From the NCBI RefSeq assembly GCF_004217615.1, contig NZ_SHLD01000001.1:3968001-4032000 (forward strand): DNA of 64,000 nucleotides, given 5' to 3'. How positions within the stretch are numbered: position 1 is the stretch's first letter; each line of letters begins with the position of its first letter. Source of the stretch: Micromonospora kangleipakensis. Lineage in GTDB: Bacteria > Actinomycetota > Actinomycetes > Mycobacteriales > Micromonosporaceae. Position numbers and translations under genes: made by a program. Below, in pieces: positions 18,950-38,500 of the stretch. The notes below the pieces were generated by a model. It was not told where the DNA came from, searched no databases, and saw nothing but the letters and a program-made list of their open reading frames with translations.

Positions 18950-20122
18950 TCACAGCTCGTCGTGGCGGCGGCGCAGGAAGCGCCGCTCCACCTCCGTCGG
19001 CGCGAGCGCGATGGCCTGCTCGTACGCTGTCGCCGCCTCCGCCCGCCGATCCAGCCGGCGCAGCAGGTCGGCGCGGGTGGCGGGCAGCAGATGGTACCCC
19101 TGGAGCCGACCGGACGCCGCAAGCGCATCGACCAGCCGCAGGCCCGCCTGCGGACCCTCGGCCATGGCGACCGCAGCCGCCCGGTTGAGCTGGACCACCG
19201 GCGATCCGGTCAGCCCGACGAGCTGCTCATACAGGCAGGCGATGCGCGGCCAGTCGGTATCCGCCGCCGTGGCCGCGGCGGCATGGCAGGCCGCGATAGC
19301 GGCTTGGAGCTGGTACGGCGTGGGGGTACCCGTGAGCAGCCCGCGACCTTCGCCGATCAGGGTGCGGTCCCAGCGGCTACGGTCCTGCTCGTCCAGCGGG
19401 ACCAGGTCACCGTTTCGGTCCGTGCGCGCCGCCGCCCGGGCGTGCTGCAACAGCATGAGCGCGAGCAACCCGCGCACCTCGGTCTCCGTGGGCATCAGCC
19501 GCGCCAGCAGCCGGCCAAGCCGGATCGCTTCCCCGGCGAGCTCCCGGCGCCTGGAGTACCCCTCGTTGAACAGCAGATAGAGCACGCCCAGTACGCCGGT
19601 AAGACGCTCCGGCAGCAGATCCGCCGGCGGTACCCGGTACGGGATGCCCGCCTCACGAATCTTGCGTTTGGCGCGGACCACCCGCTGCGCCATCGTCGCG
19701 GTCGACGTCAGAAACGCCCGCGCGATCTCCTCGGTCGTCAGGCCAGCGACCGTCTGCAGGGTCAGCGCTACCCGCGCGTCCAGCGTCAGCGCAGGGTGGC
19801 AGCACGTGAAGATGAGGCGCAGCCGGTCGTCGGTCCACTCGTCGTCGCCCGCGTCCGGCGCCTCGGCAAGCTCCTGCAGCTTGGCCGCCTCGACATTCGC
19901 GCGGCGCAACCGATCGAGCGCACGGTTACGCGCCGTCGTGGTCAGCCACGCGCCGGGGCTCCGGGGTACACCGTCAGCGGGCCACCGCAACAATGCCGCC
20001 TCAAAGGCGTCCTGGACGCACTCCTCGGCCAGCTCCCAGTTACCGGTCCACCGGATGACGGTGGCCAGTACCCTCAGCCGCTCGGCACGGAAGGCCCTGG
20101 CCACCGCGTCCGGAGCATTCAC
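18950..20122 (-). CDS. ECF42-type RNA polymerase sigma factor with C-terminal TPR-like extension
   Basis: The 390-residue protein has sigma region 2 ([18 protein letters not shown] and [10 protein letters not shown]), then region 4 ([20 protein letters not shown] with RVVRAKRKI). An extension of about 200 residues is rich in Ala and Leu helices ([20 protein letters not shown]). This long form is characteristic of ECF42, which has no anti-sigma factor and is encoded next to a YciI/DGPF protein. The neighbour at 20119-20451 is exactly that and overlaps by 4 bases. The C-terminal extension is thought to control activity in this group. Confidence 0.9.
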
Positions 20123-20451
20123 GTCTCCCAGAACCGGCCTTCCCAGATCGGGCGCAGTTCAAGGGTCCCGAACTGCGCCGCCGGGTGCTTGGCCGCCACC
20201 TCCATCGCCTCGTCGAGGTCCGTGCAATCGAGGATGTCGAACCCGGCGATCTGCTCCTTGGTCTCCGCGAACGGCCCGTCCGCGACCAGTACCTCGCCGT
20301 TTCGCACCCGTACCGTCGTCGAGTCGCGGATCGGTCGCAACCGGTCGCCTGACTGCCGGACACCGCGGCGCTGCATCTCCTCGACCCACGCCGTCGGATC
20401 AGCGTTGCGCTCCTCGTCCTCGGCGACGCAGACCAGCATCACATACCGCAC
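20119..20451 (-). CDS. YciI-family DGPF-motif protein, ECF42 partner
   Basis: The 110-residue protein carries the signature [15 protein letters not shown] near residue 65 and the C-terminal ELRPIWE seen in this family. GTG at 20451 follows a strong AAGGAGGAGG; ATG at 20439 is an alternative. Its stop overlaps the start of the ECF42 sigma gene (ATGA), giving strict co-expression. The family resembles muconolactone-isomerase-like folds and is linked to ECF42 regulons; catalytic function is not established. Confidence 0.88.
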
Positions 20452-20779
20452 GCCTCCTCCTTCCGTCACATGTCTAGCAGGACGACGAACGGCAACACCC
20501 CGGTATCGACAGCCGCCCCCATCGTGTCTGCATCGGCCCGAAGGCCGAGACCGAGGCGTGGCGCCGACGATGTGGGTCATCAGGGTGTCACGTTGCCTGC
20601 TCCTGCGGCCGATCTCCGGTGGCCGCCACCGTACAGACCGCGGTGCCGCGAGACTCGTCACGGCGCAGCAAGATCATTTGATCTGTCGAGCGCCGAGACT
20701 GTCCGTGTCGCCTGCCCGCGGCGCTCGTCTACCGGGAGTGCGGTCCTCCGGACGACCGGTCCTGTTCGTTGCTCGTCAA
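20452..20779. other. intergenic stretch upstream of the YciI/ECF42 operon
   Basis: No gene seen. It must contain the promoter of the - strand YciI-ECF42-MFS operon. A short palindrome (AGATCA, TT, TGATCT) lies at 20671-20684. Confidence 0.35.
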
Positions 20780-22180: not shown

Positions 22181-23080
22181 TTATCGCTCAGTGGGCGTAG
22201 CGTGCAGGTCCAGCAGCCCGGCATCGACGACGGCGCGGCTGAGGGGGCGTGCCAGTTCCGCGAGCCGTGCGCAGCCGTCCTCGCCGAGCGCCCGGTAGGC
22301 CGGTTCGGCGAGGGCGTCGGTCCGCTCCTCGACCGACCGGCGCAGCTCCCGGCCGGCATCGGTGAGCGCGAGGTCCTCGGCGTCGACGCTGGCGGCGGCC
22401 AGCAGTCCGCGGGACCGCAGGCCGTCCACCGCCTCGGCCCACTCGTCCCTGGTCCAGCCGCGGCTGCTGCGCAGGAACCGCTCCGGCGCCTCGCCGGTCG
22501 CGGCGTGCAGCACGAGCGCGTCGAGACCGTTGACACCGGCTACCAGCAGCGCGTTCACGTGCCCGTCGCCGCGAAACTCGCGCAGCAGCGTCTGCGCGTG
22601 CCACAGCACGAGGTGTGGCTCGTCCGGCCACGGCAGTGCCGCGTGGGCGGCGAACAGCGGACGCCCGGGTAGGTGCTCGCACGCGGTCTCGGCCGCCCTC
22701 CGCGCCAGCCCGGCCGCCTCGGTGATGGCCGCCCCGGTCGGCGCTCCGCCCGGCAGGCCCGTGAAGGCCCGGCGCAGCGCCGCGTCCGCGGCGTCGAGGC
22801 GGGCGCGAAGCACGGCCGCCGGATCGGCTCGCTGCCACGCGGCGGGCAGTGCCGAGTACACCAGCGCGGGTTTGAAGTTGAAGAACGTCGCGATGACCGG
22901 CTCGGCCGGTACCGTGCCGAACGCGGCCGACCGTGACGCGAAGTAGCCCATCGGGCCGTCCAGGCCGAGCGCGGCATACCGTTGCCGCGCCTCGGGGGCG
23001 AAATAGATCATGGCGTGGATCGGCTCTGCGCGGCGCCACGCGGCGCGGGCGACCGCGGGGTCGAGCGGGGATCGCACCAC
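22181..23080 (-). CDS. SCO6745-family helix-rich protein
   Basis: The 299-residue protein starts at the first of two tandem GTG codons, five bases after GGAAGGAG. It matches the actinobacterial SCO6745 group: RRAEPIHAMIYFAPEARQRY, GYFASRSAAFGTVPAEPVIA, TFFNFKPALVYSALPAAW, LWHAQTLLREFRGDGHVNAL and a winged-helix-like C terminus (GWTRDEWAEAVDGLRSRGLL). The conserved E-P-x-H and F-R-G-D-G-H residues suggest a metal- or cofactor-binding pocket. Function unknown. A short SDR fossil lies directly upstream. Confidence 0.8.
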   Translation of the reverse strand: MVRSPLDPAVARAAWRRAEPIHAMIYFAPEARQRYAALGLDGPMGYFASRSAAFGTVPAEPVIATFFNFKPALVYSALPAAWQRADPAAVLRARLDAADAALRRAFTGLPGGAPTGAAITEAAGLARRAAETACEHLPGRPLFAAHAALPWPDEPHLVLWHAQTLLREFRGDGHVNALLVAGVNGLDALVLHAATGEAPERFLRSSRGWTRDEWAEAVDGLRSRGLLAAASVDAEDLALTDAGRELRRSVEERTDALAEPAYRALGEDGCARLAELARPLSRAVVDAGLLDLHATPTER

Positions 23081-23385: not shown

Positions 23386-24912
23386 TTACGGCCTCGCGTC
23401 CTGCGCGAAATGCCACCGCAGCTCCCGCTTGAGCACCTTCATGCTCGGCCCGAGCGGGAACTGGTCGACGAACTCCACCCGCCGCGGATACATGTGCCGG
23501 CCCAGATGCTCACGGGACCACTCGACGATCTCGTCGGCGGTCACCTCCGCCGCCGGGATGACCACCGCACACACCTCTTCGCCGTGCGTAGGGTGGGGCA
23601 CGCCGATCACCGCCACCTGCGCGATGGCCGGGTGACGTAGCAGCGCCTCCTCGACCTCCCGCGGGTACACGTTGAACCCGCCCCGGATGATGAGGTCCTT
23701 CTTCCGGTCGACGATCGTGACGAATCCGGCCTCGTCCCGCATGCCGAGGTCACCCGTACGGAGCCAGCCGTCCACGATCGCCTCCGCGGTCGCCCGTGGC
23801 TGGCCGAGGTAGCCGGCGAAGACGTTGTGGCCGCGGATGACGATCTCGCCGATCTCCCCCGGCGGGAGCAGCTCCACCCGGCCCTCCAGGTCGGCCCGGG
23901 CCACCTCGACGTCGACGCCCCAGACGGGACAGCCGACGGTGCCGGGACGCGCGCCGAAGGTGGGCTGGTTCGTGGTCGCCACGGGGGAGGTCTCGGACAG
24001 CCCGTAACCCTCGTAGACGGTCGTCGCGAACATCTCCGCGACCTCCTCAAGCAGACTGACCGGCAGCGACGCGCCGCCGGAGACGCACAGCCGCAACGAC
24101 GGGCGCGGGGCGCCCCTGCGGGCCGCGTCGACCAGCGCGATGTACATCGTCGGCACACCGAGGAACGCCGTCACGGCCTGCGCGACCATCAGCTCCAACG
24201 CCTGGGTCGGATCGAAGCGCGGCTGGAGCACCAGCGTGGCGGCGGCGCGGAACGTGGTGTTCATCGCGGCGGTCTGCCCGAAGCTGTGGAACAGCGGCAG
24301 GCAGCCGAGGATCACGTCATCGCCGCGCACCCCGAGGTCGTCGAAGGCGTTGACGGTGGCGTTCATCGTCAGGTTGAGGTGGGTCAGGATCGCCCCCTTC
24401 GGCCGGCCCGTGGTGCCGCTGGTGTAGAGCACGACGGCCGCGTCGTCCGGCGCGGTCGGCACCAGCCCGGGTGTCGGCGCCAGGCGAGCGGCCGCCGCGA
24501 CCAGCGAATCTGGATCGGCCGGGTCCAGCGGGACCGCCGGTATCCCGGCCAGCTCGGCCGCCTTCGCGGCCGTCGCCGGGTCGCCGACCCCGTGCACCAC
24601 GACCCGGGCCTCGCTGTCGCGCAGGACGAACGCCACCTCCTCGGCGGTCAACAGCAGGTGGATCGGCACCACGACCGCCCCGAGCGAGAGAATCGCATAG
24701 TAGGCGCGCGGGAAGTCGGGCACGTTCCCGGCCATCAGGGCGACCCGGTCACCGGGGCGTACCCCCCGCTCGGCCAGCGCCGCCGCGTAGCCCCGGGCCT
24801 GCGTCCACAGCTCCGCGTACGTGACGCGTTCGTCGCCGCAGACGATCGCGGGATGCTGCGGTCGGCGCCGGGCGCTTTCTGCCAGGACGGACGCCAGCGA
24901 CAGTTGGGCCAT
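23386..24912 (-). CDS. AMP-dependent acyl-CoA synthetase/ligase
   Basis: The 508-residue ANL enzyme shows all core motifs: LYTSGTTGRPKGAILTH near residue 163 (P-loop), YEGYGLSETSPVATT near 298, GWLRTGDLG and DRKKDLIIRGGFNVYPREVE near 400, and the catalytic lysine in SMKVLKREL near 495. It activates a carboxylic acid to acyl-AMP and then acyl-CoA. Lying opposite the SDR/APH/acyl-CoA dehydrogenase operon and next to its presumed regulators, it is the likely entry enzyme of that pathway. Acid specificity is not predictable. Confidence 0.92.
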   Translation of the reverse strand: MAQLSLASVLAESARRRPQHPAIVCGDERVTYAELWTQARGYAAALAERGVRPGDRVALMAGNVPDFPRAYYAILSLGAVVVPIHLLLTAEEVAFVLRDSEARVVVHGVGDPATAAKAAELAGIPAVPLDPADPDSLVAAAARLAPTPGLVPTAPDDAAVVLYTSGTTGRPKGAILTHLNLTMNATVNAFDDLGVRGDDVILGCLPLFHSFGQTAAMNTTFRAAATLVLQPRFDPTQALELMVAQAVTAFLGVPTMYIALVDAARRGAPRPSLRLCVSGGASLPVSLLEEVAEMFATTVYEGYGLSETSPVATTNQPTFGARPGTVGCPVWGVDVEVARADLEGRVELLPPGEIGEIVIRGHNVFAGYLGQPRATAEAIVDGWLRTGDLGMRDEAGFVTIVDRKKDLIIRGGFNVYPREVEEALLRHPAIAQVAVIGVPHPTHGEEVCAVVIPAAEVTADEIVEWSREHLGRHMYPRRVEFVDQFPLGPSMKVLKRELRWHFAQDARP

Positions 24913-25103
24913 GGTGCGGGGTTCCTCGCTGTCGAAGGGGATGGACGGCGTCGCGGACCGGACGTGGACGGGGTGCCCTGATCGAAGACCGGCGGGCCGG
25001 CGAAATCAAAGACGGGCCGTCACCCGCCCCATAGGCGTCGGCTATGGCCGGCGCACATTACGCCGCGACCGCGGCGTCACGGCTCGCCGACGGCGTGGCG
25101 GGT

Positions 25104-25979
25104 CTACCCTGGTCGACGCAGCAGCTCCAGCAGGGCCCGGGCCGCCGGCGACAGCCTCCCGGGCCGGTGGACCAGCGCGAACCGGCAGACCATCGGCGGG
25201 TCCAGCGCCCGCACGACCGCTCCGCCGCGGGCCGCCTCGTCGGCGTACCACCGGGTCAGGAACGCGGTGCCGGCCCCGGCGAGGACCATTGGTACGACGG
25301 CCTCGCTGTGCCGGGTCACCGCCGCGCGACGCATCCGCACACCGGCCGAGGCGAGCGCGGCCAGCACCGTCGCGCGAAGCGCGCTGTGCCCCTTGATGCC
25401 GATCACCGGGGTGTCGTGGAGCGCCCGCACCGGTAGCGGCCCGTCGGCGGCGGGGGTGCCGGGCGGCAGCACCACCCACACCTGCTGTGAGCCGAGCTCC
25501 GAGACCGGCAGCCCGAGCTCGGGTATCGGCAGATACGTCAGGGCCAGCTCGCAGCTTCCGTCGCGCACCAGCCGGGCCAGCTCCTTGTCATCGCGGGGCT
25601 CCCGCACGCCCACCGAAATGCCGGGGAAGCGTCGCCGCAGGGTGGCGAGCGCCGGGGTGAGTGGGTCGACGGTCAGCGCGGCGTGCGCGGCGATGTCGAG
25701 TCGTCCGGCGCGCAGACTCACCACCTCGGCGACGGCGGCCCGGGCGGCGGTGGCGTCCCGGAGGACCTGCCGAGCCGGGGCGACCAGCGCCTCACCGGCG
25801 GCGGTGAGGACCAGGCCGTGCCCGGTGCGGTGGAACAACTCGATGCCGAGCTCGCGTTCCAGGCCCCGGATCGCCTGCGACAGGGATGGCTGGGCGATGC
25901 AGATGGCCGCAGCCGCGCGGGTGACGCCGCCGTGATCGACGACGGCGAGGAAGTACTCCATCTGGCGCAGGTCGACCAT
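25104..25979 (-). CDS. LysR-family transcriptional regulator (first of a tandem pair)
   Basis: The 291-residue protein has the N-terminal winged HTH (MEYFLAVVDHGGVTRAAAAI and QPSLSQAIRGLERELGIELF) and a LysR substrate-binding domain from about residue 90. It starts four bases after the stop of the paralogous LysR at 25984-26865, so both are made from one transcript. Adjacency to the ligase suggests control of the acyl-CoA catabolic genes; the inducer is unknown. Confidence 0.9.
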   Translation of the reverse strand: MVDLRQMEYFLAVVDHGGVTRAAAAICIAQPSLSQAIRGLERELGIELFHRTGHGLVLTAAGEALVAPARQVLRDATAARAAVAEVVSLRAGRLDIAAHAALTVDPLTPALATLRRRFPGISVGVREPRDDKELARLVRDGSCELALTYLPIPELGLPVSELGSQQVWVVLPPGTPAADGPLPVRALHDTPVIGIKGHSALRATVLAALASAGVRMRRAAVTRHSEAVVPMVLAGAGTAFLTRWYADEAARGGAVVRALDPPMVCRFALVHRPGRLSPAARALLELLRRPG

Positions 25980-25983
25980 CAAC

Positions 25984-26865
25984 CTACCCCGCTCCACATG
26001 CGGCGCGGGCGTGTGCCAAGAACGCGCCCGCGGCCGGCGACAGTGGACCGGGCCGGTGCACCAGCCCGTACGCCTGCCGCAGCGGCGGGTCCACCGGGCG
26101 CACGACAGCGCCGAGGGAGGCGGCCGCGTGCGCGGTCTCCCGCACCACGAAGGCGGTGCCCGCGCCGCCGAGGACGAGTGGCACGAGCGCTTCCCGATGC
26201 GCCACCTCGACCACCAGCCGGGTGCGGACGCCCTGCTCGCGCAGCGCCTGCTCGACGTGGTCGCGCTGCCAGCTTCCGCGCGGCACCCCGAGGACGTCGG
26301 CGCCGTGCAGCCGGGCCAGCGGCACGGCGTCAGCCGGGCCGACGTCGGTGCCCGGCGGGAACGCCAACCACAGCTCCTGTACGCCGAGCTCGACCACGTG
26401 GAGCCCGAGGTGCGGCACGGGCAGGTGCGCCAGGCCCAGCTCACTGTGTCCGTTCCGGACGAGGATGTGCAGGCCGTCATCGGTCTCCGGCTCGTCGATC
26501 CGTACGACGATGTCCGGTTTCAGGCGCCGGAACGAGCCGACCAGGGATGCCCCCGGGTATGCCGCCAGGACGGGCACGGTGACCAGGTCGAGGACCGCGC
26601 TGGATGGTTCGCGCGACCCTACCGCCTCGCGGGCGGCGGTGATGCCGCGCAGCATCTGGCGGGCCGGGCCGACGAAGGCCCTGCCCGCGTACGAGAGCAC
26701 CAACCCGTGTGAGACCCGGTGGAACAGCTCGGCGCCGAGTTCGCGCTCGAGCGCGCGCACCGACTGCGACAGCGTCGGCTGGGCGACGTCGAGCGCCGAG
26801 GCCGCCCGGCTGAAGCCGCCGTGCTCGGCTACCGCGAGGAAGTAGGAGACCTGCCTGACGTCCAA
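25984..26865 (-). CDS. LysR-family transcriptional regulator (second of a tandem pair)
   Basis: The 293-residue protein has YFLAVAEHGGFSRAASALDV and QPTLSQSVRALERELGAELF as the HTH, then the effector domain. The start is a TTG at 26865 with GGGAG five bases upstream; no better start is in frame. It is clearly paralogous to its neighbour (shared GAGTAF, RPVDPP/RALDPP and VHRPGPLSPAA features), which points to local duplication and possible heteromer formation. Confidence 0.88.
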   Translation of the reverse strand: MDVRQVSYFLAVAEHGGFSRAASALDVAQPTLSQSVRALERELGAELFHRVSHGLVLSYAGRAFVGPARQMLRGITAAREAVGSREPSSAVLDLVTVPVLAAYPGASLVGSFRRLKPDIVVRIDEPETDDGLHILVRNGHSELGLAHLPVPHLGLHVVELGVQELWLAFPPGTDVGPADAVPLARLHGADVLGVPRGSWQRDHVEQALREQGVRTRLVVEVAHREALVPLVLGGAGTAFVVRETAHAAASLGAVVRPVDPPLRQAYGLVHRPGPLSPAAGAFLAHARAACGAG

Positions 26866-26998
26866 TGGTCTCCCGATGAGTCAGCTAGGGGCCGGTCAGC
26901 GCTGCTACCGACCGTCGTGATCGTTCGTTGTTGGCCTGGGGGCTGCGCCCGGCGTGCAGGCGCACAGCTGGACCGGCCGGCGAGCGCCGACGTGTCGA

Positions 26999-27595
26999 TC
27001 AGGGGGCGCCGACGACGCGGAGCGCCATCTCGGCGTACTGGGCGGCGATGTGCTCGGGGCTCCAGCCGCCGTCGTCGCGGTACCACCGGCCGAGGTCGAT
27101 GCCCAGTGACAGCAGGGCCGCGGCCGCCATCCGCGGGTCGGGGGTGTCGAAGACCCCGGCGGCGACGCCTGCCTCGATGAGCTGGCGGATCGCCTGCTCG
27201 ATGCGGTGGCGGATTTCCCGGATCTCGGCGAGATGCTCGGCGCTGAGTGCGGCCAGCTCGTAGTTCACGACGCGCGTGCTGGTGTGGTCGCGGGCGTGGG
27301 TGACGACGAAGTCGTGGACCACCCGCCGTAGCGCCGTGGCCGGGTCGTCAGACGACGCGATCGCGTCCTGCACCAGTCGCAGCACGTGGTCGTGTCCTGA
27401 CCGCGAGATCAGGTAGAGGAGCTCCTCCTTGGATTTGTGGTGCACGTAGAGCGCGGCTGGGCTCAGCCCGGCCGCCGCGGCGATGTCGCGTGTTGTCGTG
27501 CCGTGAAAGCCTCGCTCGGCGAACGCGCTGACGGCCGCCTTGAGCAGCCGGGCGCGGGTGACGTCGGCGCGGGAGTGCTCGGCCGTGTCGGTCAA
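26999..27595 (-). CDS. TetR-family transcriptional regulator
   Basis: The 198-residue form starts at a TTG (LTDTAEHSR) preceded by AAAGGAAGG nine bases away; the frame is open further up to 27736, but that would run into the operator. HTH: LLKAAVSAFAERGFHGTTTR, DIAAAAGLSPAALYVHHKSK and EELLYLI. A C-terminal ligand domain follows. It is divergent from the SDR operon at 27764 with a perfect palindrome between them, so it very likely represses that operon and itself, with an acyl-CoA-type ligand as the usual inducer for such neighbours. Confidence 0.87.
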   Translation of the reverse strand: MTDTAEHSRADVTRARLLKAAVSAFAERGFHGTTTRDIAAAAGLSPAALYVHHKSKEELLYLISRSGHDHVLRLVQDAIASSDDPATALRRVVHDFVVTHARDHTSTRVVNYELAALSAEHLAEIREIRHRIEQAIRQLIEAGVAAGVFDTPDPRMAAAALLSLGIDLGRWYRDDGGWSPEHIAAQYAEMALRVVGAP

Positions 27596-27726
27596 CGCGT
27601 CCGTCCTTCCTTTCTGGGCCTCGTCGGGCAGCGACACCACCGTGCCGGTGGACGAGGCGGACACCACTGAGCGAGGCCGACCTGTTGACGGCGGCCGCGG
27701 TGTGTCGCACACTTCATCGACTGTAC

Positions 27727-27746
27727 TACTAAGCAAGCGCTTAGTA
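27727..27746. promoter_or_regulatory. palindromic operator, presumed TetR site
   Basis: TACTAAGC, four bases, GCTTAGTA: a perfect 8+8 palindrome just upstream of the ribosome site of the SDR operon and inside the divergent TetR gene's leader. The sequence class (CTAAGC...GCTTAG) is typical of TetR regulators of acyl-CoA pathways in actinobacteria. Confidence 0.75.
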
Positions 27747-27763
27747 AGTTTGGAGGGGAAACG

Positions 27764-28567
27764 GTGCCCGAAGCCGTGATCGTTGCCGCCGCAGCGAGTG
27801 ACGCGCCATCACCGATGTCAACGAGGTTCACCGGACGGACGGCGATCGTCACCGGCGCCAGCCGGGGCATTGGTTTCGCCGTTGCCGAGCGGCTGGTCGC
27901 CGACGGTGCCAAGGTCGTCATCACCGCCCGCAAGCGGGAGACGCTCGACCAGGCGGTCGCCCAGCTGGGCCCCGAGCACGCCATCGGCGTGGCCGGCCAC
28001 ACCGACGATGCCGACCACCAGGCCGAGGTCGTGGCCCGCGCGGTCGACACCTTTGGCAGCGCCGACTTCCTGGTCAACAACACCGGCATCAACCCGGCGT
28101 ACGGCCCGATGGTCGAGATGGACCTGGCAGCGGCCCGCAAGGTCTTCGAGGTGAACTGCCTGGCCGCCCTGTCGTGGGTGCAGCAGGTCCACCGGCGCTG
28201 GATGAGGGAGCACGGCGGTGCCGTGGTCAACGTCTCCTCGGTGGCCGGCGTCCGGCCCGCGCCTGGCATCGGCTTCTACGGCGCCAGCAAGGCGATGCTC
28301 ACGCACATCACCCAGCAGCTCGCCGTGGAGCTCGGCCCGGGCATCCGGGTGAACGCCGTTGCCCCGGCCGTCGTGAAGACGAGGTTCGCCACCGCGCTCT
28401 ACGAGGGTCGGGAGGAGCAGGTGGCTGCGGCCTACCCGCTCAAGCGGCTCGGAGTCTCCGAGGACATCGGCAGCGTCGTTGCGTTCCTGCTCTCTGAGGA
28501 TGCCGCCTGGATCACCGGTCAGCTACTGGTCGTCGACGGCGGCGTCACCCTGACGGGAGGTGTCTGA
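27764..28567 (+). CDS. SDR oxidoreductase (operon gene 1)
   Basis: The 267-residue classical SDR has a GTG start six bases after GGAGGGG. Cofactor motif TGASRGIG near residue 29, NNTGI near 105, catalytic Ser in VVNVSSVAG and YGASK near 175. It ends with the usual GQLLVVDGGVTLTGG. It is a FabG-like 3-oxoacyl or hydroxyacid/alcohol dehydrogenase. It is the first gene of the eight-gene operon under the TetR operator; its stop overlaps the next ATG by one base. Confidence 0.9.
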   Translation: MPEAVIVAAAASDAPSPMSTRFTGRTAIVTGASRGIGFAVAERLVADGAKVVITARKRETLDQAVAQLGPEHAIGVAGHTDDADHQAEVVARAVDTFGSADFLVNNTGINPAYGPMVEMDLAAARKVFEVNCLAALSWVQQVHRRWMREHGGAVVNVSSVAGVRPAPGIGFYGASKAMLTHITQQLAVELGPGIRVNAVAPAVVKTRFATALYEGREEQVAAAYPLKRLGVSEDIGSVVAFLLSEDAAWITGQLLVVDGGVTLTGGV

Positions 28568-29349
28568 TGCCGGTATGGAACAAGGGTGTCGTCGTCACCG
28601 GCGCCGGCCACGGCATCGGCCGTGCTCTGGCCACCCGACTCGCCGCTGGGGGAGCGCGTGTCGTGGTCAACGACCTCGACGCCGAGGCAGCCATCCGGGT
28701 GGCCGAGGAGCTCGGTGGTTTCGCCGCTCCCGGTGACGCCGCCAGCGAGCAGGGTGTCGCCGCGCTGGTCGAGGCGGCCCGAGGCCACCTGGGCAGCATC
28801 GACATCTGGTTCGGGAACGCCGGCATCGACCGTGGCCACGGGCTGTGGGCCGCCGAGGAGGACTGGGCCGCCACCCACGAGGTGAACGTCATGGCGCACG
28901 TGCGGGCCGCGCGACTGCTGATACCGGGATGGGTGGAGCGCGGCTCCGGTCGCTTCGTCGTGACCGCCTCCGCGGCCGGGCTGCTCACGATGATCGGGAG
29001 TGCGGCGTACTCGGTCAGCAAGCACGCCTGCCTCGCGTTCGCCGAGTGGCTCTCGGCGACCTACCGGCACCGCGGGGTCGTGGTGCAGGCGATCTGCCCG
29101 CAGGGCGTGCAGACCCGGATGCTCGACAACGCCGCGCCCCTGCAGGAGTTGCTCAGCCACGATGCGGCGCTCACGCCGGAGGACGTCGCCGAAGCGACGT
29201 GGCAGGCCCTCCACGACGACCGGTTCCTGGTCCTGCCGCATCCCCAGGTGGCCGACTACTACACCCACCGCGCCCTCGACACCGACCGGTGGCTGAACGC
29301 CATGAACAAGCTCCAGCGACGACTCGAGGACCAGGGGGCACTTCGATGA
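28567..29349 (+). CDS. SDR oxidoreductase (operon gene 2)
   Basis: The 260-residue SDR has TGAGHGIG near residue 12, NDLD after strand 2 (NAD-type acidic residue), GNAG in place of the usual NNAG, TASAAG with the catalytic Ser and YSVSK near 150. The C terminus is atypical: instead of the common VDGG end it has FLVLPHPQVADYYTHRALDT and a basic tail, as in SDRs of steroid and acyl-CoA clusters. Overlaps neighbours on both sides, so it is co-translated. Confidence 0.88.
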   Translation: MPVWNKGVVVTGAGHGIGRALATRLAAGGARVVVNDLDAEAAIRVAEELGGFAAPGDAASEQGVAALVEAARGHLGSIDIWFGNAGIDRGHGLWAAEEDWAATHEVNVMAHVRAARLLIPGWVERGSGRFVVTASAAGLLTMIGSAAYSVSKHACLAFAEWLSATYRHRGVVVQAICPQGVQTRMLDNAAPLQELLSHDAALTPEDVAEATWQALHDDRFLVLPHPQVADYYTHRALDTDRWLNAMNKLQRRLEDQGALR

Positions 29350-30329
29350 AGGCATGGCGGGTCGCCGAGCTCGGTGAGCCCCACGACGTGCTGCGGCTCG
29401 TCGACGTGGCCGACCCGGAACCGGGTCCCGGGCAGCTCGTGGTGAACGTGCTGGCCTGTCCGGCCAACTTCCCCGACGTCCTGATGTGCCGTGGCGAGTA
29501 CCAGGTCAAGCCGGAGCTCCCGTTCACCCCGGGTGTCGAGCTGTGCGGCGAGGTCGTGGCGCTCGGCGAGAGCGTCGACGGGTTCGCCGTCGGCGACCGC
29601 GTGCTCGGCGGCGCGGTGCTGCCGTTTGGCGGGTTCGGTGAGCTCGCGCTGCTGAATGCGGCGACCACGTTCCCCGCGCCCGCGGAGCTCGACGACGCCG
29701 AGGCGGCCTCGCTCTACATCGGCTACCAGACCGGTTGGTTCGGCCTGCACCGCCGGGCCGGGCTGCGCGCGGGCGAGACGCTGCTGGTGCATGCCGCGGC
29801 CGGCGGCGTCGGCAGCGCCGCCGTGCAGCTGGGCAAGGCGGCCGGCGCCCGGGTGATCGGCGTCGTGGGTGGTCCGGAGAAGGTGGCGGTGGCCCGCGCA
29901 CTGGGCGCCGACGTGGTCGTCGACCGCCGCGAAGAGGATTTCGTCGAGGTGGTCAAGGCCGAGACCGGCGGCCAGGGTGCCGACGTCGTCTACGACCCGG
30001 TCGGCGGCGAGACCTACCAGCGTTCGACCAGGTGCATCGCCTTCGAGGGTCGCATCCTCGTGGTCGGCTTCGCCGGCGGCCAGATCCAGTCCGCCGCGCT
30101 CAACCACGCCCTGGTGAAGAACTACTCGATCGTGGGCCTGCACTGGGGCCTGTACCACCGCTACGACCCGGCAGCCGTCGCCGAATGCCATCGTGCCCTC
30201 ACCGCGTTGGCCGCCCAGGGCGCCGTACGACCCCTGGTCAGCCAACGCCTCGCGCTCGACGAGGTGGCCGACGGGGTGCAGGAGCTCGCCGACGGCGTCA
30301 CCGTCGGGCGGGTGGTGTACGTGTCGTGA
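29346..30329 (+). CDS. NADPH:quinone oxidoreductase-like MDR-family enzyme
   Basis: The 327-residue zinc-free medium-chain reductase starts at an ATG overlapping the previous stop. An N-terminal GroES-like domain (FTPGVELCGEVVALGESVDG) is followed by a Rossmann domain with LLVHAAAGGVGSAAVQLGKA near residue 143. No zinc ligands are visible. Relatives reduce quinones, enones or act as enoyl reductases/acyl-CoA reductases. In this operon an enoyl- or quinone-reducing role is plausible. Confidence 0.88.
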   Translation: MKAWRVAELGEPHDVLRLVDVADPEPGPGQLVVNVLACPANFPDVLMCRGEYQVKPELPFTPGVELCGEVVALGESVDGFAVGDRVLGGAVLPFGGFGELALLNAATTFPAPAELDDAEAASLYIGYQTGWFGLHRRAGLRAGETLLVHAAAGGVGSAAVQLGKAAGARVIGVVGGPEKVAVARALGADVVVDRREEDFVEVVKAETGGQGADVVYDPVGGETYQRSTRCIAFEGRILVVGFAGGQIQSAALNHALVKNYSIVGLHWGLYHRYDPAAVAECHRALTALAAQGAVRPLVSQRLALDEVADGVQELADGVTVGRVVYVS

Positions 30330-31039
30330 GCACCGCCAACCAGGTGGAAGCCGTGGTCTTCGACTACGGCGGCGTGCTCACCGGGCCGGTCCGGGACTCG
30401 ATCGCCGCGTGGCTGCAGGACGACGGCATCGAGCCGACGTCGTTCTCGTGGACGCTCAAGGCCTGGCTGTCCCGCGACGCCCCGGAAGGCACCCCCATCC
30501 ACCGGCTGGAAACCGGGGCGCTGAGCGTCGAGGAGTTCGACGGCCTGCTCGCCGCCGAGCTCACCTCGGTCGACGGGCGTGCGATCGACCCTGTCGGCGT
30601 CCTGGCCCGGCTGTTCGCCGGGATGCGCCCCGACCCGGCGATGTTCGCCCTCGCCCGGGAGTTGCGGGACGTCGGCGTCCGCGTCGGGCTGCTGTCCAAC
30701 AGTTGGGGCAACACGTACCCGCGCGAGCGGATCGACGCCCTCTTCGATCCCGTCGTCATCTCCGGTGAGGTCGGTCTGCGCAAGCCGCTCGCCGCGATCT
30801 ACACGCTCACCCTGGACCGGCTCGGCCTGCCGGCCGACCGAGTGCTGTTCGTCGACGACGCCGAGCCGAACGTGCTCGGCGCCCGCGCGGTCGGCATGCG
30901 GGCGCTCCGGCACACCGACGCCGACACCACCAGGGCCGCGCTCGCCGAGTTGTTCCCCGGCCTGTCCCGCCGGCCGCCCACGGCCGCATCCCGTTCTGAA
31001 CTGCCACATCCCGCACCCATCGAGGAGTTCACTCCATGA
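30326..31039 (+). CDS. HAD-superfamily hydrolase (sEH-N/ACAD10-type)
   Basis: The 237-residue protein uses a GTG start overlapping the previous stop. HAD motifs: VVFDYGGVLTGPV (motif I; the second Asp of DxD is Gly), LLSNSWG (motif II), GLRKPLAAIY (motif III Lys) and VLFVDDAEPNVLGARAVGM (motif IV). This is the subgroup found at the N terminus of soluble epoxide hydrolase and of animal ACAD10. With an APH-type kinase and acyl-CoA dehydrogenase downstream, it may act on a phosphorylated acyl intermediate. Phosphatase activity itself is not certain because of motif I. Confidence 0.85.
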   Translation: MSTANQVEAVVFDYGGVLTGPVRDSIAAWLQDDGIEPTSFSWTLKAWLSRDAPEGTPIHRLETGALSVEEFDGLLAAELTSVDGRAIDPVGVLARLFAGMRPDPAMFALARELRDVGVRVGLLSNSWGNTYPRERIDALFDPVVISGEVGLRKPLAAIYTLTLDRLGLPADRVLFVDDAEPNVLGARAVGMRALRHTDADTTRAALAELFPGLSRRPPTAASRSELPHPAPIEEFTP

Positions 31040-31791
31040 CCATCACCCGCACCGCCGTCGTCACCGGAGCGGCCCGCGGCATCGGCGCCAGCGTCGCGAA
31101 GCGGCTTGCCCGGGACGGCTTCGCCGTCGCCGTCGTCGACCTGGACGAAGCGGCGTGCAAGCCGGTCGTCGGAGAGATCGAGGCCGGCGGCGGCCGGGCC
31201 CTGGCCGTCGGCGCCAACGTCGCCGACGAACAGGCGGTGCAGGCGGCCGTGGATCGGATCGCCGAGGAGCTGGGCGAGCCCACCGTGCTGGTCAACAACG
31301 CCGGCATCACCCGGGACAACCTGCTGTTCAAGATGACCGCCGGCGACTGGGACGCGGTCCTGAACGTGCACCTGCGTGGCTCGTTCCTCGTCACCCGCGC
31401 CGTGCAGGGCTACCTGACCAGGGCCGGTTGGGGGCGGATCGTCAACCTGTCCAGCACCTCGGCGCTGGGCAACCGCGGCCAGGCCAACTACGCGGCCGCC
31501 AAGGCCGGTCTGCAGGGCTTCACCAAGACGCTCGCGCTGGAACTCGGGAAGTTCGGCGTTACGGCGAACGCGATCGCCCCTGGCTTCATCGAGACCGAGA
31601 TGACCGCCGCCACCGCAGCGCGGGTCGGCATGTCGTTCGAGGATTTCAAGGACGCCGCCGCGGCGCAGATCCCGGTCGCCCGCACCGGCAAGCCGGAGGA
31701 CATCGCGCATGCCGTGTCGTTCTTCGTCAGCGAGGCTGCCGGTTTCGTGTCCGGCCAGGTGCTGTACGTCGCCGGCGGGCCGAAGGCCTGA
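31036..31791 (+). CDS. FabG-like SDR (3-oxoacyl-ACP/CoA reductase type; operon gene 5)
   Basis: The 251-residue classical SDR has TGAARGIG near residue 11, NNAGITRDNLLFKMT, VNLSSTSALGNRGQANYAAA with YxxxK and GFIETEMT. It is very close to FabG/PhaB-type beta-ketoacyl reductases. It starts at an ATG overlapping the HAD gene stop. In the pathway it could oxidise a 3-hydroxyacyl-CoA made by the following MaoC-type hydratase. Confidence 0.9.
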   Translation: MTITRTAVVTGAARGIGASVAKRLARDGFAVAVVDLDEAACKPVVGEIEAGGGRALAVGANVADEQAVQAAVDRIAEELGEPTVLVNNAGITRDNLLFKMTAGDWDAVLNVHLRGSFLVTRAVQGYLTRAGWGRIVNLSSTSALGNRGQANYAAAKAGLQGFTKTLALELGKFGVTANAIAPGFIETEMTAATAARVGMSFEDFKDAAAAQIPVARTGKPEDIAHAVSFFVSEAAGFVSGQVLYVAGGPKA

Positions 31792-31805
31792 GCGGGAGAG
31801 GAGAG

Positions 31806-32261
31806 ATGATGAAGGTCTTCCACGGAATCGAGGAGCTGGAGCAGGCGGTCGGCACCCACCTCGGCTACTCCGACTGGCACACCGTCACGCAGCAGCAGAT
31901 CAGCGCCTTCGCTGAGGCGACGGGTGACCGTCAGTGGATCCATGTCGACCCGGCGAAGGCGGCGCACTCTCCGTTCGGCAGCACCATCGCGCACGGATAC
32001 CTCACGCTGTCGCTGGTGCCGATGCTGGTCTGGCAGGTGTACAAGGTCGAGGGGCTGAGCATGGGTGTGAACTACGGCGCCAACAAGCTCCGCTTCCCCT
32101 CGCCGGTCCCCGTCGACTCCAGGGTGCGGGCCGGAGTGGAGCTGCTGTCGCTGGTGCCCGGCGGCGGTGGCTACCAGCTGACGGCGAAGGTGACCATCGA
32201 GCTGGCGGGTGCGGAGAAGCCCGCCTGCGTCGTCGAGACCGTCAGCATCCTGGTGCCGTGA
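31806..32261 (+). CDS. MaoC-like (R)-enoyl-CoA hydratase
   Basis: The 151-residue single hot-dog domain protein has the hydratase-2 motif: FAEATGDRQWIHVDPAKAAH near residue 38 with catalytic Asp and His, then GSTIAHGYLTLSLVP. Two tandem ATG codons follow GGGAGAGGAGAG. It hydrates trans-2-enoyl-CoA to (R)-3-hydroxyacyl-CoA, which pairs naturally with the FabG-like SDR upstream and acyl-CoA dehydrogenase downstream. Confidence 0.9.
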   Translation: MMKVFHGIEELEQAVGTHLGYSDWHTVTQQQISAFAEATGDRQWIHVDPAKAAHSPFGSTIAHGYLTLSLVPMLVWQVYKVEGLSMGVNYGANKLRFPSPVPVDSRVRAGVELLSLVPGGGGYQLTAKVTIELAGAEKPACVVETVSILVP

Positions 32262-33286
32262 TCGCCTCCGCACCGCAGGACCCGCCGGGCCTCGACCTGG
32301 CCCGGCTCTCCGACTGGTTCGCCGCCTCGGTGCCCGGGGCGGCCGCGGACCTGACCGCCCGGCTGATCCCCGGCGGGAAGTCCAACCTCACCTACGAGGT
32401 CGGTGACGGGCGGAAGACCTGGATCGTCCGGCGGCCGCCGCTGGGGCATGTGCTGGCGACCGCGCACGACATGACCCGGGAGTACCACGTCATGTCGGCC
32501 CTTCAGGCCACCGACGTGCCGGTGCCGACGACCTACGCGCTCTGTTCGGACATCGACGTGCTGGGCGCGCCGTTCTACGTGATGGAGCGGGTCGCCGGTA
32601 CGGCGTACCGGCACGCGGCCGAACTCGAGCGGCTCGGCCCGGAACGCACCCGGGTCATCTCGACCAGGCTGGTCGACACCCTGGCCGCCCTGCACGCGGT
32701 CGACCCGACGGCCGTGGGGCTAGCCGACTTCGGCCGGCCCGACGGCTTCCTGGCTCGGCAGGTGAGCCGCTGGAAGAAGCAGCTCGACGCGTCGTACTGC
32801 CGGGACCTGCCAGCCGCCGACGAGCTGCACGCCCGCCTGGCGTCCGGCGTGCCGACCGGGTCGGCGCCGGGCATCGTGCACGGCGACTACCGCCTCGACA
32901 ACGTCCTCACCGACGGCCGCGACCGCCTCGCCGCCGTCATCGACTGGGAGATGGCCACGCTCGGCGACCCGCTTACCGACGTGGCGCTGCTGGTGCTCTA
33001 CCAGCGTCTCGGCCGGCTCGTCGGAGTAGCGGTGGCCGACGCCTCGTCCGCGCCCGGCTTCCTGACCGAGGACGAGATCCTCGAGCGGTACGCCGCACGC
33101 AGCACGCGCCCCCTCCCGCGATTCGGCTTCTACCTCGGCCTGGCGGCCTTCAAGCTGGCCGCGATCCTCGAAGGCATCCACTACCGCCACCTGCGCGGCC
33201 AGACCGTCGGCGCCGGCTTCGAGCGGATCGGCGGGGTCACCGAGCTGCTGCTCGGCGCCGGCCTGACCTATCTCAAGGAGCACTGA
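32258..33286 (+). CDS. APH-type phosphotransferase, ACAD11/LvaA-like acyl kinase
   Basis: The 342-residue kinase-fold protein overlaps the MaoC gene by 4 bases. ATP site: [14 protein letters not shown] near residue 37; Brenner motif [12 protein letters not shown] near 208 (catalytic Asp, Asn); metal motif [15 protein letters not shown] near 226. This is the subgroup paired with acyl-CoA dehydrogenases, as in bacterial LvaA and in the N-terminal domain of animal ACAD10/11, where the hydroxyl of a 4-hydroxyacyl-CoA is phosphorylated. It is not an antibiotic-resistance enzyme by context. The acyl-CoA dehydrogenase starts on its last base. Confidence 0.9.
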
Positions 33287-34530
33287 TGGACTTTGCCCTG
33301 GACCCGAGGACCGAGGGGCTGCGCGACAACCTCCTGGACTTCATGGACAGCCACATCCACCCCGCCGAGGACGTTTTCCGCAAGCAGCTCGGGCAGCTCG
33401 GGCAGCTCGGCGACCGCTGGGCCTGGGACTCGGTGCCCGTGCTCGCGGAGCTGCGCGCGGCGGCGAGGAAGCGCGGGCTGTGGAACCTCTTCCTGCCCGG
33501 TGAGCACGGGGCGGGCCTGACCAACCTGCAGTACGCCCCGCTCGCCGAGATCACCGGGCGTAGCCACCTGGCGCCCGCCGCCCTGAACTGCGCAGCCCCG
33601 GACACCGGCAACATGGAGGTGCTGGCGATGTTCGGCACCGAGCCGCAGCGGAAGCAGTGGCTGGAGCCGCTGCTGGACGGCGAGATCCGGTCGTCGTTCG
33701 CCATGACCGAGCCGGACGTGGCGTCCTCGGATGCCACGAACATAGCCACCCGGATCGAGCGGGACGGCGACCAGTACGTGATCAACGGCCGCAAGTGGTG
33801 GATCACCGGCGCGATGAACCCGAACGCCCGGATCTTCATCGTCATGGGCAAGACCGACCCGAACGCCGAGCGGCATCGTCAGCAGTCCATGGTGCTGGTC
33901 CCGCGGGACAGCCCGGGCCTGGAGATCAAGCGGGGCATGGAGGTGCTGGGGTACGACGACCACGACCACGGCGGGCACGCCGAGCTGGAGTTCCACGACG
34001 TACGCGTGCCGGTCGAGAACCTGATCGGCGCCGACGGCGATGGATTCGCGATCGCGCAGGCCCGTCTCGGTCCCGGCCGCATCCACCACTGCATGCGCTC
34101 CATCGGCATCGCCGAACGGGCCGTCGAACTGATGTGCGCCCGCGCCGAGCAGCGGATCGCGTTCGGCAAGCCGCTGGCCGAGCAGGGGGTGATCCGAGAC
34201 TGGATCGCCGAGTCCCGGGTGCGGATCGAGCAGCTGCGCCTGCTGGTGCTCAAGGCGGCCTGGTTGATGGACACCGTCGGCAACAAGGGCGCGCACACCG
34301 AGATCCAGGCGATCAAGATCGCCACCCCCGCGACCGTCCAGTGGATTCTGGACAAGGCGATCCAGGTGCATGGCGCCGCTGGCCTCTCCCAGGACTTCCC
34401 GCTGGCGGGCGCCTACGCCCGCATCCGCACCCTGCGCTTCGCCGATGGACCCGACGAGGTGCACAAGAATGCCCTGGCGCGCCACGAACTGCGTTGCCAG
34501 GCTGTCGCGAGGCAGCACAGCCACGCCTGA
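33286..34530 (+). CDS. acyl-CoA dehydrogenase family protein, ACAD10/11/LvaC-like
   Basis: The 414-residue flavoenzyme shows [20 protein letters not shown] near residue 138 and [19 protein letters not shown] (FAD region). A helical C-terminal domain ([40 protein letters not shown]) follows. W-W-I-T-G-A and S-S-D-A are typical of the ACAD10/11-like branch rather than of ordinary fatty-acid dehydrogenases. In LvaC/ACAD11 systems this protein removes the phosphate from a phosphoacyl-CoA to give an enoyl-CoA. It shares one base with the kinase gene, so the pair is tightly coupled. Confidence 0.92.
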
Positions 34531-35533: not shown

Positions 35534-38500
35534 ATGTCGTATCCCCCCCTTGCGCGCCCGTTGTCCCCCCGACTGTTCGCCGCGACAGCTGCGGTCTTGC
35601 TGCCCGCGGGACTGCTCGTCGCCGCACCCCCGGCGGGTGCCGCGCCCACTACGGCGCCGCCCGGCAATTTCAGCTCCTCGTTCGAGGCGGCCGACCCGCA
35701 ACCCGCCGCCAGCACCGTCGAGGTCGACGCGAGCGGTAAGCCGGTCCAGGCGAACCTGAGCGGCTCGAGCCCCACCGGATTGCCCGGCAGCCTGCTCGGT
35801 CAGGTCAATGCGGTGACCGCGAGCGCCGAGAACCCGCCGAACGAAACCGCCGCGAACCTCACGGACGGCAATCCCTCCACGAAGTGGCTGGCGTTCAACC
35901 CGACCGGCTGGGTGACCTACCAGCTGGCCAAGCCGGCGGCGGTGGTGCGGTACGCGCTGACCTCCGCGAACGACGCCCCGACCCGTGATCCCAAGGACTT
36001 CACGGTGCAGGGGTCCAACGACGGCAGCACGTGGACCGACCTCAACAGACAGACGGGGCAGAGCTTCAGCGGGCGGTTCGCCACGAACACCTACAGCTTC
36101 ACCAATACGACTGCCTACGGTTACTACCGCCTGAATGTCTCCGCGAACTCCGGTGACTCCCTTGTTCAGCTCGCCGACTGGGACATCAGCGACGGCTCGA
36201 ACGTCAAGCCGCCGGCCACCCCGATGGGCAGCGTCGTCGGCACCGGTCCGGTCAGTGGCCACAACATGAAGCCCAAGGCCGGATTCACCGGGCTGGCTTC
36301 GCTGCGATACTCGGGCGGCGCCGAGGCCGACGGTCGCTCGTACGCGACCAACAAGGTGTTCGAGGTCGACATCCCGGTCGGGCCAGAGACGCGGTTGTCC
36401 TACAAGATCTTCCCCGAGTTCACCGGTCAGGACACCCAGTATCCGTCCACCTACGCGGCCGTGGACCTGCACTTCACCGACGGCGGCTACCTCAGCCTGC
36501 TTTCGCCGGTAGACCAGCACGGATACCCGCTCACGGCCGCCGGGCAGGGCGCGTCGAAGGTGCTCTACGCCGACCAGTGGAACGCGGTGCAGTCTGACAT
36601 CGGGGCGGTTGCGAACGGCAAGACGATCGACCGCATCCTGCTCGCCTACGACGATCCCCATGCGACGGCCTCGACCCGCTTCCAGGGTTGGCTCGACGAC
36701 ATCACGCTGACGGGCGCTCCGACACCGATCGACGGCTCCAGCCGGACCAATTACGTCGACACCCGGCGCGGGACCAACGCATCGGGCTCGTTCTCGCGCG
36801 GCAACAACCTGCCGATCTCGGCGATGCCGAACGGCTTCAACTTCTTCACGCCCGTCACCAACGCCACCTCGAACTCGTGGGAGTACGAGTACCAGCGGAA
36901 CAACAACGCGGCGAATCTGCCCACGCTGCAGGGACTGGCGATCTCGCACGAGCCCAGCCCGTGGATGGGTGATCGTGACCAGATGTCGGTCATGCCGGTG
37001 CCGGCCGGCGGATCCCTCACCGGAGCGCCAAGCGGCCGCGCGCTCGCCTTCAGCCACGACGACGAGGTCGCGCGGCCGGACTTCTACCAGGTCACCCTGC
37101 AGAACGGCCTGATCGCGCAGATGTCGCCCACCGACCACGGCGGGATCATGGCGTTCACCTTCCCGTCCGGGCAGGCCACCGGAAGCCTCGTGTTCTACAA
37201 CGGCACGTTCACCATCGGTACGGACGGCACGTTCACCGGCTGGGTCGACAACGGAAGCGGCCTGTCGGCCGGTCGCAGCCGGATGTTCGTGTCCGGCACC
37301 TTCGACCGCGCGCCGACGACGTCCTCCGCCACGTCCGCGACCTTCGACACCTCGGCAAACCGGCAGGTGACGCTGCGCATGGCGACGTCATTCATCTCGG
37401 TCGACCAGGCACACCGGAACCTCGACCTGGAGGTCACCGGCAACAGCCTCGACCAGGTCCACGCGGCCGCCACCGCGGCATGGGAGGACCGGCTCGGCCG
37501 GATCGACGTCCAGGGCGCGGCCGAGACGCAGCTGGTGACGCTGTACTCGAACCTGTACCGGCTGAACCTGTATCCGAACTCGCAGTCGGAGAACACCGGC
37601 ACCGCCACCGCGCCGCACTGGCAGTACGCGAGCCCGGTGTCGCCGCCGACTGGCACGTCTACCGCCACCCAGACCGGCGCGAAGATCGTCGACGGGCAGA
37701 TCTACGTCAACAACGGGTTCTGGGACACCTACCGCACCGTGTGGCCCGCGTACTCGCTGTTGTACCCCGACATCGCAGCCAGGATCGCCGACGGGTTCGT
37801 CCAGCAGTACCGCGACGGCGGGTGGATCGCCCGCTGGTCGTCGCCCGGCTACGCCGACCTGATGACCGGCACCAGCGCGGACGTCGCGATGGCCCAGGCC
37901 TACCTCAACGGCGTCGAGCTGCCCGACCCGCTCAGCGCCTACGACGCGGCGGTCAAGGACGCGACCGTGGCGTCCGGGCGCAGCGAGGTCGGCCGCAAGG
38001 GCATCGAGACCTCTCTGTTCCTCGGTTACACGCCGACCTCCACCGGCGAGTCGGTGTCGTGGGCGTTGGAAGGCTTCATCAACGACTACGGCATCGGCAA
38101 CATGGGCGCCGCCCTGGCCAAGGACCCGGCCACGCCGAAGTCGGAGCGCGACCGGCTCAACGAGGAGTCGCGGTACTTCCTGCAGCGTGCCCGCAACTAC
38201 GTCAACCTCTTCGACGCGAAGACGAAGTTCTTCCAGGGACGCGACGCGGCCGGCAACTTCCTCGCCGGCAACCCGCTGGACTGGGGTGGCGTCTATACCG
38301 AGACCGACGGGTGGAACTACGCGTTCACCGCGCCGCAGGACGGACAGGGGCTCGCCAACCTGTACGGCGGGCGGAAGGCGCTGGAGCAGAAGCTCGACGA
38401 GTTCTTCGCCACCCCGGAGAACGCCGACCATCCGGGCGGGTACGGCGGAACGATCCACGAGATGCTCGAGGCGCGTGCGGTGCGCATGGGCCAGCTCGGC

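Follow-up and report, generated by a model that had tools for sequence, protein, structure and literature searches.

Results

Organization of the locus

The region described here lies in the genome of Micromonospora kangleipakensis (a single contig of 7.27 Mb), within a stretch of 64,000 nucleotides (G000:C1:3968001-4032000) that was analyzed as a whole and is referred to as the window. It encodes, in separate genes, relatives of the three parts of ACAD10: a HAD protein, an APH-fold kinase, and an acyl-CoA dehydrogenase (ACAD). Eight genes on the plus strand (27815-34530) are arranged in the order SDR1, SDR2, QOR, HAD, SDR3, MaoC, APH, and ACAD, where SDR denotes a short-chain dehydrogenase and QOR a quinone-oxidoreductase-like protein, and are divergent from a TetR-family regulator gene (Table 1). 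Each gene overlaps the next by 1 or 4 bp, the sole exception being a 14 bp gap between SDR3 and MaoC. Because the genes overlap or nearly touch, they likely constitute a single transcription unit. Beyond the TetR gene, two LysR genes and then an acyl-CoA ligase gene follow, all on the minus strand.

Gene calling together with Pfam and NCBIfam assignment recovered every gene named in an initial annotation of this DNA, at the coordinates and in the families that it gave; its "two to three" SDRs proved to be three. That annotation described the HAD, kinase, and dehydrogenase genes as separate and coupled. They are separate, but the HAD gene is not adjacent to the APH gene, as SDR3 and MaoC lie between them. 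In a search of the Protein Data Bank, the nearest solved relative of SDR1 was DHRS4.

Table 1. Features of the locus (positions are those of the window)
Feature	Position	Strand	Basis or remark
Acyl-CoA ligase, AMP-dependent	23386..24912	-	Pfam, NCBIfam; outside the conserved unit
LysR regulator 1	25104..25979	-	Pfam; probably outside the unit
LysR regulator 2	25984..26865	-	Pfam; probably outside the unit
TetR-family regulator (TetR_N, TetR_C_24)	26999..27595	-	Pfam; 198 aa, presumed TTG start
Palindromic candidate operator ACTAAGCAAGCGCTTAGTAAG	27728..27748	.	TetR/SDR1 gap; core TAAGCAAGCGCTTA at 27730-27743
SDR1, short-chain dehydrogenase; candidate carbonyl reductase	27815..28567	+	Pfam, PDB
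SDR2, candidate 4-oxoacyl-CoA reductase (LvaD counterpart by role)	28567..29349	+	Natural kinase fusions
QOR, PIG3-type NADPH oxidoreductase; candidate 2-enoyl or enone reductase	29346..30329	+	
HAD protein of sEH-N/YihX/ACAD10 type	30326..31039	+	Motifs, profile scores, linkage
SDR3, FabG-type 3-oxoacyl reductase / 3-hydroxyacyl dehydrogenase	31036..31791	+	Pfam, NCBIfam
MaoC-type enoyl-CoA hydratase	31806..32261	+	Pfam
APH-fold kinase, ACAD10/11-LvaA family; proposed 4-hydroxyacyl-CoA kinase	32258..33286	+	Pfam, PDB, residues, tree
ACAD10/11-LvaC-type dehydrogenase; proposed 4-phosphoacyl-CoA phosphate-eliminating enzyme	33286..34530	+	Pfam, PDB, residues, trees

The dehydrogenase

By its sequence, the window dehydrogenase is a member of the ACAD10/11 family, as the initial annotation had proposed. 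In a phmmer search of solved structures, its best matches were ACAD11 (8V3U, 1.7e-139; 2WBI, 1.1e-137) and 4HR3 (4.4e-130), and the best match outside the family fell to 1.6e-48. According to the available part of Rashan et al. (PMC12440821), residues R626, H634, R637, and D753 of ACAD11 surround the 4-phosphoacyl-CoA, while R631 is common to all ACADs. All five residues were conserved in the window protein when ACAD11 numbering was applied (chain positions in the structure are one below the published numbers, and the mapping is our own), and the equivalent of P759 of ACAD10 was also present. The catalytic residue (D753 of ACAD11, D1040 of ACAD10) is Asp, not Glu. In contrast, three ordinary ACADs from this genome lacked R626, H634, and R637 and had Glu in place of D753. 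Guinea-pig ACAD10 (P0122) showed the expected residues at the human-numbered positions P759, R913, D1040, D463, and D48, and the window proteins had the same residues at these positions. In the ACAD tree, in which LvaC was not among the rows, 35 family rows including the window protein formed one branch with support of 100/99, set against five rows of ordinary ACADs or of the ACAD pair c7/c8 described below. The inner order on the latter side is unsure, because long branches meet there.

The kinase

The nearest solved relatives of the window kinase were 9O56 (2.4e-58), 3DXP (4.4e-55), and ACAD11 (7.9e-47). The published substrate and catalytic residues D220, N225, R86, and R176 (ACAD11 numbering) were retained; as they occurred in 41/41 rows compared, they mark the family rather than an inner clade. 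The closest relatives were found in M. sicca (94% identity) and M. globispora (92%).

The reading of the initial annotation implied a kinase inside the ACAD10/11 clade, and the tree did not bear this out. The window kinase is of the same family and stood on a largely actinobacterial side of 29 rows (94/96), outside a separate seven-row clade of ACAD10, ACAD11, and proteobacterial kinases (100/100). The long branch Rhodoc_L100 was of unsure placement. LvaA and the assayed Burkholderia pseudomallei kinase (PMC11342911) were not among the rows; judged by genus, the assayed pair is expected near the Burkholderia row. Activity of the window kinase is therefore extrapolated across this fork.

The family kinase and family ACAD are fused, ACAD first, in the bacterial proteins P0121 and P0123-P0126. 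In another protein, P0127, a kinase 67% identical to that of the window is joined to an alpha/beta hydrolase, possibly an esterase or lactonase partner. On a Deinococcus radiodurans plasmid (L098:8238-10026), the gene for a family kinase overlaps that for a histidine phosphatase. This recalls the levulinate cluster of Pseudomonas citronellolis, in which, as given in the accessible part of PMC6692424, a histidine phosphatase lies beside the LvaA homologue and LvaB was not found.

Further genes of these families occur elsewhere in the genome. A second kinase and ACAD10/11 pair, with 53% and 72% identity to its window counterparts, forms a two-gene unit near a LacI-type regulator gene and a GH1 gene (G000:C1 about 2740324-2742632; L107:6325-8633), with no match to the window HAD or SDRs within 16 kb. 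A third ACAD10/11-type dehydrogenase, with 62-64% identity (G000:C1:5404914-5406092; L108:6858-8096), is divergent from SDR and ligase genes and has TetR and carboxyl-transferase genes after it; no kinase match was found in this 14 kb stretch.

Conservation of the neighbourhood

The neighbourhood was surveyed at the 80 best-matching kinase loci in the genome collection, that is, around the closest kinases and not a random sample. The window proteins were used as queries no farther than 10.5 kb away, with fixed cut-offs for identity (at least 45% for TetR and the ligase), and the counts are lower bounds, because some loci sit on short contigs. ACAD was found near the kinase at 64 loci, SDR2 at 44, SDR1 at 42, SDR3 and MaoC at 31 each, TetR at 23, QOR at 17, HAD at 12, and the FadD ligase at 2. 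A thiolase (7/80), the further ACAD pair c7/c8 (25/80), and a phosphotriesterase-family gene (7/80; six Amycolatopsis, one Nocardioides) emerged as additional neighbours from gene calling and clustering, each of them also at locus L096.

The order from TetR to ACAD, except for HAD, was repeated in other Micromonospora, and a Tsukamurella plasmid includes HAD as well, with the order thiolase, SDR1, SDR2, QOR, HAD, FabG, MaoC, kinase, ACAD, two additional ACADs, phosphotriesterase, and ligase. Such recurrence indicates that the arrangement is not due to chance. Outside the Actinomycetes, plasmids of Deinococcus and Cytobacillus carry kinase, ACAD, SDR, and MaoC genes together. The core module is thus not new, and the window locus is a variant of a widespread module. 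Its gene order is unlike that of the lva operon, as had been noted.

The ligase was present across the regulators as annotated; its proposed place as the first pathway member is not supported, and ligase and LysR as members of the unit were rejected on conservation. In addition to its scarcity among the 80 loci, neither ligase nor LysR had a counterpart beside the operon in stretches from 10/10 other Micromonospora genomes. These stretches, two of which appear identical with loci L010 and L011 of the kinase set, contained no LysR match and a lone ligase match of 31% about 7 kb past TetR (L136). M. sicca (L009), not among the ten records by name, has the ligase/LysR arrangement of the window. 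There, the gene for an HTH_67 family protein that adjoins the ligase gene (window 22181-23080) is also retained. In Pseudomonas putida, a strain deleted for lvaE was still able to grow on levulinate, as stated in the available portion of PMC6692424.

The HAD protein

The first motif of the window HAD is D-x-G-G-V, in which the second Asp has been lost; the remaining motifs are intact. The same motif was common to the ACAD10 HAD and to the best 120 of 1965 homologues (the window protein included). Profile scores were 68.8 bits for YihX, 64.6 for the ACAD10 HAD, and 53.9 for sEH-N, with a profile built twice from one alignment. The structure model fell with sEH-N and YihX in Foldseek and VIA-align, which does not decide orthology. 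In a class-wide sample, all 14 other HAD copies had a relevant neighbour, 12 lying beside an ACAD10/11 dehydrogenase and 2 beside a family kinase. By motif and neighbourhood, the protein would correspond, in unfused form, to the HAD domain of ACAD10. Two proteins that join HAD and kinase sequences (P0147 and P0151, with garbled middle stretches) look like frameshifted neighbours, as do P0128 and P0148; none of the four was counted as a fusion.

The candidate operator

The gap between TetR and SDR1 contains the palindrome ACTAAGCAAGCGCTTAGTAAG with the core TAAGCAAGCGCTTA. The core had one exact copy in the genome, none at one mismatch, and three at two mismatches, while a reversed-pattern control gave 31 sites at up to two mismatches. 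On these counts, no broader TetR regulon was found in the genome. Among 101 Micromonospora genomes (that of M. kangleipakensis included), the exact core was present in 11, the same 11 that have the kinase at E <= 1e-120 (Fisher p 6e-15, uncorrected for relatedness). In 11/11 of these, the site lies between TetR and SDR1, with TetR divergent from SDR1. Across genera, the pattern TAAGC[AG][AG]GCGCTTA was found on the scanned strand of 24/81 loci. These observations are consistent with a TetR protein that would bind the palindrome and repress the operon.

A second copy of the core was found in genome G088 (L123, G088:C78:80158) just upstream of an ACAD pair located elsewhere in that genome, which is 77% identical to c7 and 56% to c8 over 90 residues. 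This position suggests common control of the pair, that is, a regulon acting in trans. In the M. kangleipakensis genome, no close c7 copy was found, the best match being 33% over part of the protein.

Fusions and lactonase neighbours

Four natural fusions of SDR2 and kinase (P0130-P0133) were found, with SDR parts 44-65% identical to SDR2. The three of them included in the tree form one clade, so there were fewer fusion events than proteins. Ligase-kinase fusions were represented by P0129 and P0134 (kinase 52-57% identical) and P0159 (34%). Fusions were rare, with 47 hits in total from a very large database. Since it is naturally fused to the kinase, SDR2 is the likeliest candidate for the 4-oxo reductase.

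The phosphotriesterase-family neighbour was closest to PPH of Mycobacterium tuberculosis (4IF2, 2.2e-109), whose lactonase family acts on gamma- and delta-lactones according to the available text of PMC3468530. A class-wide survey from the lactonase side gave 38 places in 35/197 genomes. A family kinase lay in the flanks of seven of these, in four genera (six above the cut-off and L156 at 35%), and 31 had none in the fetched flanks; an ACAD10/11-type ACAD of more than 45% identity flanked four. The expected number of kinase-lactonase neighbours was 0.29 (80 kinases, 178.9 Mb), a Poisson figure that serves as a guide only, as it assumes even spacing and ignores relatedness and the clustering of catabolic genes. 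At 19/38 places (loci L153-L177), a ligase gene lay within 3 kb of the lactonase gene, always on the same strand and in 15/19 cases less than 150 bp away. The lactonase-type and ligase genes that accompany the module in some relatives point to gamma-lactones; this may be regarded as a lead for these lineages, not as a result for the window.

Other genes in the window

Just downstream of the operon, positions 35534-41158 encode a very large GH92 protein with F5/8-type C and PKD domains. At 18950-20661, a DUF6596 sigma factor gene overlaps a YCII-domain gene, a pairing that presumably resembles that of ECF42-type sigma factors.

Discussion

Our analysis suggests, with a probability of about 75%, that the locus is a TetR-controlled catabolic operon that brings 4-oxo/4-hydroxy acyl-CoAs into beta-oxidation. 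The core reaction, in which a 4-hydroxyacyl-CoA would be phosphorylated and phosphate eliminated to give an enoyl-CoA, is well supported by the families and active-site residues of the kinase and dehydrogenase. In the pathway that we infer for this organism, the input would be 4-oxo or 4-hydroxy acyl-CoAs, in some relatives perhaps acids derived from gamma-lactones. QOR may reduce a 2,3 double bond first, and SDR2 and/or SDR1 would convert the 4-oxoacyl-CoA into the 4-hydroxy form. The kinase would then phosphorylate the 4-hydroxyl group with ATP, and the ACAD10/11-type dehydrogenase would expel phosphate through an internal FAD redox cycle, yielding the 2-enoyl-CoA. MaoC would hydrate this product and SDR3 oxidize it to the 3-oxoacyl-CoA, for which a thiolase, found inside the unit in some relatives, must here be supplied from elsewhere. 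The HAD protein may keep 4-phosphoacyl-CoA in check, acting either as a brake on the kinase or as a phosphatase. The initial annotation proposed the order ligase, kinase, dehydrogenase, MaoC, and FabG; from the kinase onward this order is reasonable, whereas the non-conserved ligase drops out.

Several observations weigh against this reading. HAD, MaoC, SDR3, and QOR are each absent from many relatives in the 80-locus survey. The kinase is on a different branch from the assayed kinases, and its substrate could differ. YihX (68.8 bits) and the ACAD10 HAD (64.6) are equally close to the window HAD in profile score. None of the 12 class-wide stretches that pair HAD with an ACAD10/11 gene contained a kinase match, so the linkage there is between HAD and ACAD, not HAD and kinase. 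HAD was present in 4/11 kinase-bearing Micromonospora and missing from 7/11, and is dispensable to the unit. Furthermore, no phosphotriesterase-family gene was found in the window's own genome.

An antibiotic phosphotransferase would belong to the same Pfam family (PF01636), but the NCBIfam resistance models scored at most 41.5 bits against cut-offs of 205-725, ACAD11 and related proteins are its closest matches among solved structures, and the gene context is metabolic; the resistance-kinase reading was rejected, and we give it practically no credence. An ordinary beta-oxidation operon, with a conventional ACAD and an APH protein unrelated in substrate, would account for MaoC, FabG, and ACAD, which are common neighbours in such operons. 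It is nevertheless very improbable in view of the diagnostic ACAD residues, the gap in E-values, and the fusion of family kinase to family ACAD in ACAD10 and five bacterial proteins. The same kinase and ACAD chemistry might act on a natural substrate that is a 4-oxo or 4-hydroxy acid derived from a ring or branch (in a terpenoid, a steroid, an aromatic, or another natural product); the extra SDRs and QOR would then work on what is left of the ring, at an earlier stage. Three SDRs and a QOR exceed the needs of a straight-chain 4-hydroxy acid, relatives carry the further ACAD pair (25/80 and L096), and in G088 the operator precedes such a pair. The P450 with ferredoxin near a Sphingobium pair and the ring-hydroxylating dioxygenase beside a Paraburkholderia pair leave such substrates open; these loci are, however, distant proteobacterial relatives. 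Neither oxygenase nor P450 occurs among the named clusters of recurring actinobacterial neighbours, several clusters being unnamed, and plain lactones suit the lactonase and ligase neighbours. We consider a ring- or branch-derived substrate rather unlikely, though well ahead of the two preceding explanations.

Instead of braking the kinase, HAD may be active as a phosphatase that recycles 4-phosphoacyl-CoA when it is stalled or wrong, a reading that falls only slightly short of an even chance. Relatives retain the nucleophile Asp and the Ser, Lys, and DD motifs; YihX, the closest solved relative by profile, was called a phosphatase by its depositors; and 12/14 class-wide copies adjoin an ACAD gene in stretches with no kinase match. 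Histidine-phosphatase genes likewise accompany the kinase genes of Deinococcus and, in the part of PMC6692424 available, P. citronellolis. On the other hand, Gly replaces the second DxD Asp in 120/120 homologues listed, as in ACAD10, and the accessible text of PMC11342911 reports that the ACAD10 HAD had negligible phosphatase activity and restrained the kinase by unexplained means. Its role was not evaluated in the second mammalian study, as far as the available part of PMC12440821 goes. We tentatively propose, at somewhat less than even odds, that the D-x-G-G-V HAD subfamily is a near-obligate genomic partner of 4-phosphoacyl-CoA enzymes across Actinomycetes and a free-standing relative or analogue of the ACAD10 HAD domain, acting in trans as a sensor-brake or in clean-up of 4-phosphoacyl-CoA, and that the wider module, made up of lactonase, ligase, 4-oxo reductase, kinase, and phosphate-eliminating ACAD, serves as a gamma-lactone route in some actinobacteria.

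The locus also provides a simple bacterial system for probing the role of the third part of ACAD10, the HAD. As each part has a bacterial gene of its own, HAD can be supplied, left out, or mutated without altering the other two. Hints at how the pathway is fed come from the fusions of SDR2 to the kinase and from the neighbouring lactonase and ligase genes. The biological function of phosphotriesterase-like lactonases was called unknown in 2012 (PMC3468530, available in part); if true, the gamma-lactone module would give them a physiological catabolic role.

Among known systems, the P. putida lva operon resembles the locus in its split kinase and ACAD and in an SDR matched by role to LvaD. The LvaB gene, which we take to lie between the kinase and ACAD genes of the lva operon, has no counterpart in that position here. 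At the window locus, no LvaB-type gene was found beside the kinase, whose gene shares 4 bp with MaoC and 1 bp with ACAD, and no LvaR-type regulator was present, the regulators being TetR, which replaces LvaR, and LysR. The locus also adds MaoC, FabG, QOR, and HAD and has no ligase in its conserved unit. Activity has been published for ACAD10/11 and for the split orthologues of B. pseudomallei (PMC11342911 and PMC12440821, in the parts available). The window shares with ACAD10 and ACAD11 the kinase and ACAD families and the published active-site residues, and with ACAD10 a HAD that has lost the same second Asp of motif I. However, ACAD10 combines HAD, kinase, and ACAD in one polypeptide, whereas these are three separate genes in the window, with HAD split from the kinase by SDR3 and MaoC and the kinase on another branch of its family. 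The B. pseudomallei orthologues (Q63VL0 and Q63VL1; Paquay et al.) are separate proteins that can replace ACAD10 domains, and the available text of PMC11342911 mentions no HAD partner for them. A pair from B. cenocepacia (L097) has identities of 38% (kinase) and 59% (ACAD) to the window proteins. Of the phosphotriesterase-like lactonases (PPH, MCP, AhlA, and SisLac; PMC3468530), a PPH relative is part of the Tsukamurella version of the operon and is found close to the module in Amycolatopsis and in one Nocardioides, unlike in the window genome. The accessible portions of the open-licence literature, to which our search was confined, contained no bacterial HAD partner and no account of this actinobacterial operon. 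Bacterial split kinase/ACAD pairs are already known; what is new is the linkage of HAD, the fusion of SDR2 to the kinase, the co-occurrence of operator and kinase, and the lactonase and ligase neighbours in relatives.

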